A DNA stretch of 64,000 bases from Myroides oncorhynchi. Its GTDB lineage: Bacteria; Bacteroidota; Bacteroidia; Flavobacteriales; Flavobacteriaceae. This document shows, piece by piece, positions 54,056 to 56,075 of the stretch (positions are counted from its first letter, which is position 1; the number at the start of each line of letters is the position of its first letter). The stretch is taken from contig NZ_JAJJMP010000001.1 of assembly GCF_020905415.1 (NCBI RefSeq), forward strand, positions 1,127,501 through 1,191,500, given 5' to 3'. A program made the translations under genes and the position numbers. The notes under the pieces are model-generated. The model did no database searches and was not told the origin of the DNA. It was given only the letters and a program-made list of their open reading frames with translations.

Positions 54056-54736
54056 TTAAAATAGATTTGTTTTTTTGACTGTTTTCTTTAATTGCAATTG
54101 CAATCTTTTAAGCAAAGAGACTTTCTTTTGCATGTTCTTAAGTCGCTCTTTTGCTTTGGTCTTTTGGTCTATTTTATTCCGAAGCTCCTTTTCTTTGTCT
54201 TCAGGGTTCCAAAGCATTGCTGTACACAGACAGTTCTTCTTTTCCTTACTTTGTAATATTTGGAAGTTCACACAGCTCTCACACCCTTTCCAGAATGTCT
54301 CATCTTGAGTTAATTCTGAATAAGGAACAGGTTCATACCCTAAATCTGAGTTGATCTTCATTACAGCAAAACCAGTAGTTAAGCCGAATATTTTAGCCTT
54401 TGGATATTTTGTTCTCGATAGGTCGAATACGCATTTCTTAATCGCTTTAGCCAATCCCTCTTTTCTAAAAACAGGATTAACAATCAGTCCAGAATTGGCT
54501 ACATAATCACCGTGACTCCAAGTCTCGATGTAGCAAAAACCAGCCCAAGTACCATCTACATGTAGGGCGATAACAGCCTTACCTTCAACCATTTTATTGG
54601 CAACGTACTCTGGTTTTCTTCTAGCGATACCAGTCCCTCTAGCTAGAGCAGACTGAGCCATTTCTTCACAAATTTGTTCCGCATATCCTACGTGTGTTTC
54701 ATTCGCAGGAATAACGATAAACTGACTTGAATTCAT
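54056..54736 (-). CDS. GNAT-family acyltransferase heading the arg operon (candidate glutamate N-acyltransferase)
   Basis: A 226-aa protein. Residues about 5-140 form a GNAT domain; the acyl-CoA loop is VNPVFRKEGLAKAI (Arg91-x2-Gly94-x-Ala96). After it comes a Cys-rich segment (Cys152, Cys155, Cys169, Cys171) that could bind a metal, then a very basic predicted helix (KAKERLKNMQKKVSLLKRLQ). It is the first gene of a complete arginine operon that has no argJ or classical argA, so it is the natural candidate for N-acetyl- or N-succinylglutamate synthase. This role is inference from context; GNAT proteins have many substrates. Confidence 0.78.
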   Translation of the reverse strand: MNSSQFIVIPANETHVGYAEQICEEMAQSALARGTGIARRKPEYVANKMVEGKAVIALHVDGTWAGFCYIETWSHGDYVANSGLIVNPVFRKEGLAKAIKKCVFDLSRTKYPKAKIFGLTTGFAVMKINSDLGYEPVPYSELTQDETFWKGCESCVNFQILQSKEKKNCLCTAMLWNPEDKEKELRNKIDQKTKAKERLKNMQKKVSLLKRLQLQLKKTVKKTNLF

Positions 54737-54843
54737 TTCAAAACAAGTGATTAAGAATCAAACGAGTCAAGGTATTAATACCAAATAGGTACAATAATCC
54801 TCAGACTGTATGAAAAAGCATTAAAAATCAATGATATATGTAC

Positions 54844-54873
54844 AGATATAATGCCAAAAAAGACATTATATCT
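54844..54873 (-). promoter_or_regulatory. hairpin between leader ORF and arg operon
   Basis: Perfect 10-bp stem AGATATAATG/CATTATATCT with a 10-nt T-rich loop. On the minus strand it is preceded by two T6 runs, the first of which can sit in a GGGCT...AGCCT hairpin ending in T6 (about 54873-54900). The arrangement suits alternative structures of an attenuator. Confidence 0.5.
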
Positions 54874-54891
54874 AAAAAAGGCTAAAAAAGA

Positions 54892-54999
54892 TTAAGCCCG
54901 GACGCGAGTTGACCGCGATATAGAAACAGAAGTAACCGCAACAATTGCTAGAGCAAGGTTGTTAGAAATAAAAGTTATATTTAAACCGGTTCTGTTCAT
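54892..54999 (-). CDS. arginine-rich leader peptide of the arg operon (candidate)
   Basis: A 35-codon ORF starting ATG at 54999 and ending TAA at 54892, 155 nt before the GNAT gene. The peptide starts MNRTGLNIT and ends SISRSTRVRA, so three of its last seven residues are Arg, encoded by the rare codons CGG, CGC and CGG in an AT-rich genome. It lies just after a promoter-like sequence and before hairpins and T-runs. The pattern is that of a leader whose ribosome stalling senses arginyl-tRNA. No homologue is known to me; the assignment is inference from position and codon content. Confidence 0.6.
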   Translation of the reverse strand: MNRTGLNITFISNNLALAIVAVTSVSISRSTRVRA

Positions 55000-55028
55000 A
55001 AGTTAATTCTCTGCTTAATAAGCATGAA

Positions 55029-55061
55029 CAAAGTTTTCTAATTATTATTTGATTTTGCAAG
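55029..55061 (-). promoter_or_regulatory. possible arg operon promoter
   Basis: CTTG (55058-55061) and AAACTTTG (55029-55036) on the minus strand, 21 nt apart: a degenerate consensus, 30 nt upstream of the leader ATG. Confidence 0.4.
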
Positions 55062-55393
55062 TGTTTTCTTAAAAAATTAAAACACCTTTCAATCCCTTAT
55101 AAATTAAGAGATTATAAGGAATTAATAAAAATTACTTTTAAGAAGCAACATAGTATATCTATTATTTTACGTCGAATAGCTTCTAAATTTATCTTTTTAT
55201 TAATTAACTTTGTTGCAAACAAAATCACTCATTTCCCAGTGATGATTATACCTTCTATTTTCCTAAATAAGAGGATTACAGACACAAAATAGAGTCAATA
55301 AATAAGTAATTCTTACTTGTTTTACTCCCCCCTAATTCAAATACTATCTTATCGCATTCTCATTCCATATGAATGAATAATAACTACATAGTA
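55062..55393. other. non-coding gap between the arg leader and the palindrome
   Basis: About 330 nt of AT-rich sequence without a supported gene. I see no further promoter, RNA or repeat in it. Confidence 0.5.
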
Positions 55394-55445
55394 AGTCCAT
55401 AGTGAGTCCATTAAAAACGCTGTTTTAATGGACTCACTATGGACT
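55394..55445. repeat. palindromic intergenic repeat, copy 2 (23-bp perfect stem)
   Basis: Arms 55394-55416 and 55423-55445 are exact reverse complements (23 bp) around the loop ACGCTG. Each arm contains AGTCCAT twice. The sequence family matches the imperfect copy at 24628-24681. There is no ORF inside and no T-run directly after, so it is not an ordinary terminator. Confidence 0.88.
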
Positions 55446-55462
55446 CACCCAAACCAAAAGTC

Positions 55463-55508
55463 AAAAAAAAACCTATCCGATACCTTATGTTATAAGATAT
55501 TGGATAGG
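55463..55508 (-). terminator. terminator of apt
   Basis: Stem CCTATCC/GGATAGG extended by imperfect pairs (GATACCTTAT with ATAAGATATT), followed on the minus strand by nine T. Confidence 0.8.
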
Positions 55509-55533
55509 CCCTAAATCGTATATATCAATGTAT

Positions 55534-56046
55534 TTAGTAGCTAATCAAGCTCTTTACCTCATAGTTACCTAACTTGTCTCTTCCGTGTAAGAACGAAAGC
55601 TCCATTAAGAAGTTAACTTGTACTATCTCCCCTCCAAGGCGTTCTACTAATTTACATACAGCTCCTGCGGTACCACCTGTAGCTAATACATCATCATGGA
55701 TAAGTACTTTCTCTCCTGGCTTAATCGAATCAGTGTGTATCTCTAAAACATCTGTTCCGTACTCTAAACCATAGGCTTCAGATATAGTGTCAAAAGGTAG
55801 TTTACCTGGCTTACGCACAGGGACAAAACCAGCACCTAATTTCTCTGCTAACAAAGTAGCAAAAAAGTAACCTCTACTCTCCATACCCACTACTCTATCT
55901 ATCTTCTTATCACCTACTAATGCTAATAATTGCTTAGCAGCTTCCAGCATGGCAGCATGGTCATTTAATAATGGAGTGATATCTTTAAAGCCTATACCTT
56001 CCTTCGGAAAATCTTGAATATCTCTAATATAATCTGCTATGTTCAT
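55534..56046 (-). CDS. apt: adenine phosphoribosyltransferase
   Basis: Purine salvage: adenine plus PRPP to AMP. The PRPP loop is VLIHDDVLATGGTA, with GMESRGYFFATLLAEKLGAGFVPVRKPGKLP as the conserved core. Start MNIADYIRDIQDFPKEGI at 56046 gives 170 aa, the family length; the longer in-frame start overlaps a TATTTTTG -7 octamer (56065-56072). Confidence 0.96.
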   Translation of the reverse strand: MNIADYIRDIQDFPKEGIGFKDITPLLNDHAAMLEAAKQLLALVGDKKIDRVVGMESRGYFFATLLAEKLGAGFVPVRKPGKLPFDTISEAYGLEYGTDVLEIHTDSIKPGEKVLIHDDVLATGGTAGAVCKLVERLGGEIVQVNFLMELSFLHGRDKLGNYEVKSLISY

Positions 56047-56075
56047 AGTCAATGTTTTATATTGCAAAAATACAA

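Follow-up and report, generated by a model that had tools for sequence, protein, structure and literature searches.

A candidate arginine-sensing leader ORF upstream of the arginine operon of Myroides oncorhynchi and its relatives in Bacteroidia

What controls arginine biosynthesis in Myroides oncorhynchi? Control of arginine genes in bacteria is usually ascribed to the ArgR repressor or to T-boxes, and we found no match to the ArgR domains PF01316 and PF02863 in the 4.16 Mb host genome. An earlier note on the 64,000-nucleotide stretch of DNA analyzed here (the window) had pointed to a 35-codon minus-strand ORF ending in SRSTRVRA, located 155 nt before the first gene of a complete arginine operon, and had interpreted this layout as a transcription attenuator in which ribosomes stalling at Arg codons sense arginyl-tRNA. 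The ORF is present as described; its final three Arg codons read CGG, CGC, and CGG, and 155 nt separate its stop codon from the first-gene start at 54736 (Table 1). The operon is also complete, consisting of a GNAT-like gene followed by argG, argC, argD, a carbamoyltransferase-like gene, argB, an argE-like gene, and argH. NCBIfam models matched argG, argC, argB, and argH above their curated cut-offs and argD, the carbamoyltransferase, and argE below them. The Pfam matches of the first gene were below cut-off (GNAT-like, E = 0.015 and 0.026), and its best PDB match was PA4794 (E = 3.5e-6).

Table 1. Positions in the window of the leader ORF, its surroundings, and the downstream operon
Feature	Position	Strand	Remarks
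Promoter-like stretch	55061-55029	-	TTG at 55060-55058; TAGAAAACTTTG at 55040-55029, with TTTG at 55032-55029
Leader ORF	54999-54892	-	35 codons, MNRTGLNITFISNNLALAIVAVTSVSISRSTRVRA, C-terminal end SRSTRVRA
Hairpin H0, inside the ORF	54917-54903	-	CGCGG/CGCG over Arg codons; minimum free energy fold
Putative regulatory Arg codon CGG, codon -7 from stop	54915-54913	-	CGG in 11/11 Myroides loci
Putative regulatory Arg codon CGC, codon -4	54906-54904	-	Arg in 11/11 Myroides loci, CGG in 7/11
Putative regulatory Arg codon CGG, codon -2	54900-54898	-	Overlaps start of H1; Arg in 10/11 Myroides loci, all 10 CGG
Hairpin H1, across the stop codon	54899-54879	-	GGGCU/AGCCU, then U5 (54878-54874); -4.7 kcal/mol, weak terminator-like
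Hairpin H2	54874-54843	-	UAGAUAUAAUGUC/GGCAUUAUAUCUG; from the fold; no U-run behind
First operon gene, GNAT-like acetyltransferase	54736-54056	-	Weak Pfam matches; best PDB match PA4794
argG, argC, argD, N-acetylornithine carbamoyltransferase-like, argB, argE-like, argH	54037-46481	-	NCBIfam matches

A promoter-like sequence had also been proposed upstream of the ORF. The stretch contains the TTG and TTTG elements and fits TTG/TAnnTTTG, which we take to be the Bacteroidota-type promoter motif; AAANNTTTG is invariant or nearly so across 15 aligned Myroides-type loci, as is TTTG, but a scan with a generic sigma-70 model found no excess of sites (3 vs. 4.5 expected). At Flavobacterium-type loci (e.g., L019 and L174), a promoter-like TTTG is separated from the leader ATG by only ~5 nt, so that the leader mRNA may be nearly leaderless there. 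Farther upstream in the window, the neighboring gene (55534-56067) looks like apt and is accompanied by a hairpin with 17-nt arms and a T-run behind it on the minus strand (55472-55508), probably the terminator of that gene. Between this gene and the leader, we also observed a 26-nt inverted repeat (55391-55448; 96% complementary, 6-nt gap) that gave low matches to microRNA models, below gathering scores.

A 35-codon ORF could have arisen by chance, given how many short ORFs the window contains (131 of at least 20 aa overlap 13 kb). Across the 51 ATG-initiated ORFs of at least 150 aa in the window, CGG makes up 4 of 600 Arg codons and CGC 58 of 600, so the suggestion that the leader uses rare Arg codons stands for CGG and is weaker for CGC. 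Of the three Arg codons nearest the leader stop, two are CGG, and the probability of at least two CGG among three Arg codons at the window codon frequency is 1.3e-4. The rarity of CGG, the excess of such leaders over shuffled sequences, and the conservation of the open frame and its codons in related genomes (both described below) argue against a chance ORF, an explanation to which we give virtually no weight. A search by DNA similarity found no second copy of the leader elsewhere in the host genome.

Alignment with relatives, the check that the earlier note had proposed, indicated that both the ORF and its Arg codons are conserved. As a strict test for leaders, we required an ATG start, a length of 12-70 codons, and at least three Arg among the last 12 residues. 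An ORF passing this test was present upstream of the first gene at 73 of 80 loci, these being the best 80 of 555 loci from a contig scan for relatives of the first gene. With whole-genome loci added, 136 of 218 loci passed, a set that contains the window itself (L001) and counts two pairs with identical upstream stretches twice (L003/L042 and L064/L111); without identical upstream stretches, 134 of 216 passed. For comparison, on 217 loci, dinucleotide shuffling predicted 10.4 passes and the reverse strand gave 17. Among the best 80 of the 555 loci, the leader ends follow clade: SRSSRSRA in Myroides, RFRRPILPRA in Sphingobacterium and Parapedobacter, PSRRRLFIPRV in Mucilaginibacter, and RFRRPFMPRT in Daejeonella. 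The Flavobacterium-type leader differs (..SR......TSPEVR..), and the strict test misses most leaders of this type.

Within a class sample of 296 genomes, 108 encode the first gene at E <=0.001, one of them weakly. Fifty-seven of the 107 loci examined, in 21 of 34 families, passed the strict test, a count that includes one internal ORF of an ArgR locus (L184) and with it one spurious family (f81). Only 4.6 of the 98 loci without ArgR were expected to pass; 42 of the 98 failed. Some of the failures (the Flavobacterium-type loci L171, L174, and L175) have clear leaders with fewer terminal Arg codons, and some loci without ArgR among the 107 have no recognizable leader. We likewise found no Arg-rich leader ORF at L004, L015, L094, and L101, where the first gene is present. 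Taken as sequence comparison, these data support the conservation of a leader ORF with putative regulatory Arg codons in Flavobacteriales, Sphingobacteriales, and other families of the class.

The loci that do encode ArgR allowed a comparison. A strong PF01316 match (E <1e-17) was present in 13 of the 296 genomes. Nine of the 13 also encode the first gene, in each case on the same strand as the ArgR match and 290-377 nt downstream of it. We found no credible leader at these nine loci, the sole strict pass being the internal ORF at L184. The test was thus passed at one of nine ArgR loci vs. 56 of 98 loci without ArgR (Fisher p = 0.012; p = 0.0008 without L184, and p = 0.043 if the borderline genome G209 is taken as ArgR-bearing), although these values serve as a guide only, since related genomes are not independent. 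Weak PF01316 matches occur in G209, G102, and G218, and leaders are present in two of these genomes, G209 (L193) and G218 (L122). We regard the contrast between ArgR and leader across the class sample as modest.

To what extent is the leader conserved as a reading frame? For this comparison, we drew up four clade sets, using terminal motif and length as the criteria for inclusion. The Myroides set leaves out L040, L042, L058, and L076 (33 to 38 codons), the Mucilaginibacter set leaves out L103, L104, L106, L107, L109, and L118 (39 codons in L104 and L107), the Flavobacterium set comprises only loci with PEVR, and the set of 33 from Sphingobacterium and Parapedobacter includes L064 and its duplicate L111. 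An ATG at a fixed distance and an open frame were found in every member: 11/11 in Myroides (35 codons), 33/33 in Sphingobacterium and Parapedobacter (44 codons), 11/11 in Mucilaginibacter (41 codons), and 18/18 in Flavobacterium. Because the sets were picked by terminal motif, they are biased toward that motif, but this selection did not act on the fixed ATG of the 33 or on the variable but open middle. The other two forward frames were open in 0 and 2 of 11 Myroides, 0 and 5 of 33 Sphingobacterium and Parapedobacter, 0 and 2 of 11 Mucilaginibacter, and 0 and 4 of 18 Flavobacterium loci. One antisense frame was often open (9/11, 10/33, 6/11, and 17/18, in the same order), which weighs on the other side. 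The N-terminal residues of the leader vary widely in all four sets, and the terminal residues are constant. We rejected a functional small protein as the product of the ORF, since its N-terminal residues vary while the frame and the Arg codons persist.

Certain Arg codons are invariant within these sets: CGG at codon -7 in 11/11 Myroides loci, CGG at both positions in 18/18 Flavobacterium loci, and CGA CGA in 11/11 Mucilaginibacter and 33/33 Sphingobacterium and Parapedobacter loci. CGG accounts for 0.7% of Arg codons in coding sequences of Myroides and 2.3% in Flavobacterium, and CGA for 2.9% in Mucilaginibacter, 9.7% in Sphingobacterium, and 7% in Parapedobacter. The chosen codon is therefore the rarest Arg codon in Myroides, Flavobacterium, and Mucilaginibacter and the second rarest in Sphingobacterium and Parapedobacter. 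Judged by sequence, the fixation of rare Arg codons fits the pattern that sensing of codon reading would produce. Against this, an excerpt of PMC1183508 describes the rare-codon account of attenuator leaders as an oversimplification. The codon fixation in Sphingobacterium and Parapedobacter may also serve base pairing, as discussed below.

The terminal residues could be conserved for another reason. The fungal arginine attenuator peptide and SpeFL act through arrest by the nascent peptide, and an arginine-induced arrest of this kind, in which the C-terminal peptide and not the codons would sense free arginine or a relative, might account for RxRRPILPRA in 33/33 Sphingobacterium and Parapedobacter loci (where PRA was the selection motif) and for PEVR in 18/18 Flavobacterium loci (itself the selection motif). 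However, the leader ends differ between families while Arg stays, and the synonymous choice is fixed (CGA CGA in 33/33, CGG in 11/11), which a peptide sensor would not need. Since the conserved codons of Sphingobacterium and Parapedobacter lie in RNA predicted to pair, that pairing can explain the conservation of the amino acids. We consider nascent-peptide arrest improbable.

The earlier note had placed hairpins and T-runs between the leader and the operon; these are present, and the 221-nt stretch 54945-54725 folds with z = -4.53. A hairpin over the stop codon, corresponding to H1 in the window, forms in 14 of 15 individual Myroides-type folds and is absent from the consensus fold of 11 aligned Myroides sequences; predicted stop-codon hairpins appear in the consensus folds of Flavobacterium, Sphingobacterium, Parapedobacter, and Daejeonella. 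A hairpin near H2 recurs in individual Myroides folds with differing sequences, and in the consensus of the 11 Myroides sequences three of the five H2 pairs are broken in more than a quarter of the sequences. The hairpin within the Flavobacterium ORF pairs ACTTC or GCTTC with GAAGT at 15 of 18 loci and ACCTC with GAGGT at the other 3, a compensatory change. Comparison thus recovers the ORF, its frame, its Arg codons with their wide conservation, and the hairpin at the stop codon, all at the level of sequence.

Strong folding (z = -4.53) and covarying hairpins would also suit a structured RNA, such as a T-box or riboswitch, to which the ORF is incidental. No Rfam family reached its gathering score in the region, however, and the frame and the ATG are kept while the N-terminal residues vary, which makes this explanation very improbable. 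A T-box or other Rfam element was rejected as a candidate, with no T-box among the 16 matches up to E = 10 in 54700-55530.

We consider it probable that the leader belongs to a ribosome-mediated arginine attenuator in which the Arg codons sense charged Arg-tRNA, and we are more confident still of the sensor, i.e., that the leader ORF reads arginyl-tRNA through its Arg codons. We infer that the leader is translated, that the ribosome stalls on it, and in which direction expression responds; the readout is the most inferential part of the model. If charged Arg-tRNA runs low, the ribosome would slow at the leader codons CGG, CGC, and CGG, and the RNA at the leader stop codon would fold according to where the ribosome stands. 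With the ribosome halted at codon -4 or -2, the 5' arm of H1 would be covered; otherwise, H1 would form on the stop codon and would most likely cause premature termination at the adjoining U-run. Since the stalled ribosome would block H1, arginine shortage should raise expression of the arg operon.

Simulated ribosomes on eight Myroides sequences are consistent with this mechanism. A ribosome placed at codon -4, at codon -2, or at the stop reduced H1 from 6.3 to 0.1-0 mean pairs, and one placed at codon -7 left it in place (5.8 mean pairs), a measure that is unsuited to Flavobacterium, where the 3' arm overlaps the stop codon. We selected H1 as a weak, ribosome-occluded terminator because a stall at codon -4 or -2 abolishes it in these masked folds. 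Since a ribosome at the stop also covers H1, however, H1 alone cannot separate starved from fed cells unless release is fast.

H1 is the best terminator-like site in the window, and a pattern scan for terminators near the leader returned 0 sites (0.3 expected). Some Myroides relatives lack the U-run of H1. At a threshold of <=-4 kcal/mol, terminator-like sites were more frequent than expected at Myroides-type (11/15, 2.4 expected), Daejeonella-type (7/10, 0.7 expected), and Sphingobacterium (7/23, 2.4 expected) loci and were not enriched in Flavobacterium (1/18, 3.7 expected), Parapedobacter (1/8, 1.0 expected), or Mucilaginibacter (1/13, 1.1 expected). The enrichment of weak terminator-like sites in some clades suggests that a transcriptional readout is possible there.

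These data bear on classic transcription attenuation, in which a stall at the Arg codons would favor an antiterminator over an intrinsic terminator located ahead of the first gene. Such a layout is seen for the his and ilv leaders of the host (see below), and the enrichment at Myroides-type and Daejeonella-type loci would agree with it. On the other hand, the best hairpin of the window reaches just -4.7 kcal/mol and escaped the pattern scan, Flavobacterium falls below shuffled sequences, and we found no mutually exclusive antiterminator in the window, all of which leaves classic attenuation doubtful. The original interpretation therefore survives as a conserved leader ORF with putative regulatory Arg codons before the arg operon, but the transcription attenuator itself comes down to one weak terminator-like hairpin with no antiterminator. 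For the readout in the window, we tentatively put forward termination at the modeled H1, regard Rho or another readout as a serious possibility, and consider control of translation start unlikely.

The Sphingobacterium and Parapedobacter loci point to a different readout. RNAalifold, unprompted, paired the Arg codons (CGACCY) with an RGGTCG located immediately ahead of the first-gene start codon. GGTC is present at this position in 37/37 loci of the Sphingobacterium/Parapedobacter type, some of which are near-identical. Counted from ungapped strings, the leader/start combinations were ACGACCT/AGGTCGA at 18 of the 37 loci, ACGACCC/GGGTCGT at 12, and others at 7; in this last group, the covarying position has an A-A mismatch at one locus and a C-A mismatch at another. 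Compared to shuffled start regions, p 0.05 was reached at 17 of 23 Sphingobacterium loci, of which 16 use the CGACC-type pairing and one (L051) another, and at 2 of 8 Parapedobacter loci.

Ribosome masking would disrupt this pairing. For 10 Sphingobacterium sequences, the leader:start pairs numbered 11.9 when unmasked, 10.3 with a ribosome at the stop, and 1.5-3.8 with a ribosome at codons -10 to -6; the corresponding values for six Parapedobacter sequences were 9.6, 9.1, and 2.9-3.8. The mean unpaired probability of the start region rose from 0.38 to 0.46-0.48 with a stalled ribosome and to 0.43 with a ribosome at the stop in Sphingobacterium, and a stalled ribosome produced about no opening in Parapedobacter. 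The predicted pairing of the Arg codons with the first-gene start region makes control of translation start the more likely readout in Sphingobacterium and Parapedobacter.

Could such translational attenuation operate everywhere, with the Arg-codon region pairing with the first-gene start region and a stalled ribosome freeing the start? The covarying pairing that RNAalifold chose in Sphingobacterium and Parapedobacter speaks for it, as does the tuning of initiation by structure at the start in F. johnsoniae, as described in the available part of PMC6847099. Against it, leader:start-region pairing beyond shuffles was found at 0/15 Myroides-type loci (window included), 0/18 Flavobacterium, 0/10 Daejeonella-type, and 0/13 Mucilaginibacter loci, and the predicted opening of the start region ranges from small in Sphingobacterium to about none in Parapedobacter. 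We consider a translational readout in all clades rather unlikely. Four of 38 loci from other families showed pairing beyond shuffles. Pairing of the leader with the start region was rejected for the window, since it holds only in Sphingobacterium and Parapedobacter; long duplexes with bulges, for which there was no control, were not relied on.

A second complementarity was seen at Sphingobacterium- and Parapedobacter-type loci. The CGAGC or CGGGC of the leader has a 5-nt complement (G-U allowed) 20-75 nt past the stop at 31/37 loci, mostly in the H2 loop, a count made without a shuffle control. At L064, L053, and other loci, the last leader codons (CGAGCT or CGGGCT) are complementary to a sequence in the second hairpin's loop (AGCTCG or GTCCG). 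This complementarity, which covaries between the two groups, is possibly a kissing contact between the loop and the leader end.

What would this arrangement mean for Bacteroidia? We propose that arginine synthesis in the class is often under leader ORFs that sense Arg-tRNA in the place of ArgR; that the CGG/CGA sensor is old and conserved and its readout has been swapped between clades; and that in Sphingobacteriaceae the sensing codons themselves close the start codon of the first gene, with the loop-loop contact between the leader end and the downstream hairpin as a second switch. We see the chances of this wider proposal as evenly balanced. If true, an arginine leader-peptide sensor would add arginine to the attenuator repertoire and give Bacteroidota that lack ArgR a regulator. 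It would also offer a handle on whether ribosomes in Bacteroidota follow closely enough behind RNA polymerase for attenuation. Because the sensor is kept and the readout apparently changes by clade, this set of loci allows transcriptional and translational versions of one switch to be compared directly.

Among known regulators of arginine genes, ArgR resembles the proposed leader in what it controls and, in nine genomes, in its location, with its match directly upstream of the same first gene; it differs in being a DNA-binding protein and in not having been found in the host genome. An arginine T-box would similarly sense arginine tRNA charging. T-boxes bind tRNA directly, without translation, and there was no T-box match at the arg leader. 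T-box regulation of arginine genes is named in the accessible portion of PMC1262725 (Seliverstov 2005). The same portion describes the LEU element of actinobacterial leuA, in which base pairing between a run of product codons and the first-gene translation start region encloses an inner pseudoknot, resembling the Sphingobacterium and Parapedobacter form. The LEU element involves leucine and a Shine-Dalgarno box, whereas the leader described here involves arginine, and the pairing was not found at Myroides-type loci; the authors of that text also cite experiments against a role of the codons.

The nearest proposal within Flavobacteriaceae comes from F. psychrophilum, in which structured 5' regions upstream of amino-acid operons were proposed to act by leader-peptide attenuation (PMC9723704, seen in excerpt). 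The excerpt names pheA and hisG for the elements shared with other genera, and its section 19 names no arginine operon. In B. thetaiotaomicron, short ORFs reminiscent of leader peptides are mentioned in the available text of PMC7366714. Among the matches listed in our literature search, which covered titles and abstract openings and set subscription papers and supplements outside its scope, we found no bacterial arginine leader peptide, Bacteroidota included. The novelty that the earlier note had suggested for leader-peptide control may thus hold for arginine but not for Flavobacteriaceae amino-acid operons in general, given the proposal excerpted from PMC9723704.

The host genome itself provides the closest points of reference. 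A his leader, MYPSQLHHHHHFTCTLTSW, lies before hisG with five His codons (CAT) and a terminator of -16.1 kcal/mol (L220, reverse complement, about 1157-1290), and an Ile/Val/Leu-rich ilv leader, MRNLVSILVVLIIVIVVNTFARELLC, lies before ilvD with a terminator of -17.4 kcal/mol (L219, reverse complement, about 1183-1330). Leader-peptide attenuators of the enterobacterial type are known for the his, ilv, trp, thr, leu, and phe operons. The arg leader resembles these attenuators in being a short ORF ahead of the operon, in carrying codons for the amino acid that the operon makes, and in having a hairpin over the leader stop; it differs in that it would sense arginine, has no strong terminator in the window, and has a readout that apparently depends on clade. 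A single genome therefore offers the contrast between his and ilv leaders with strong terminators and an arg leader with a weak terminator-like hairpin.
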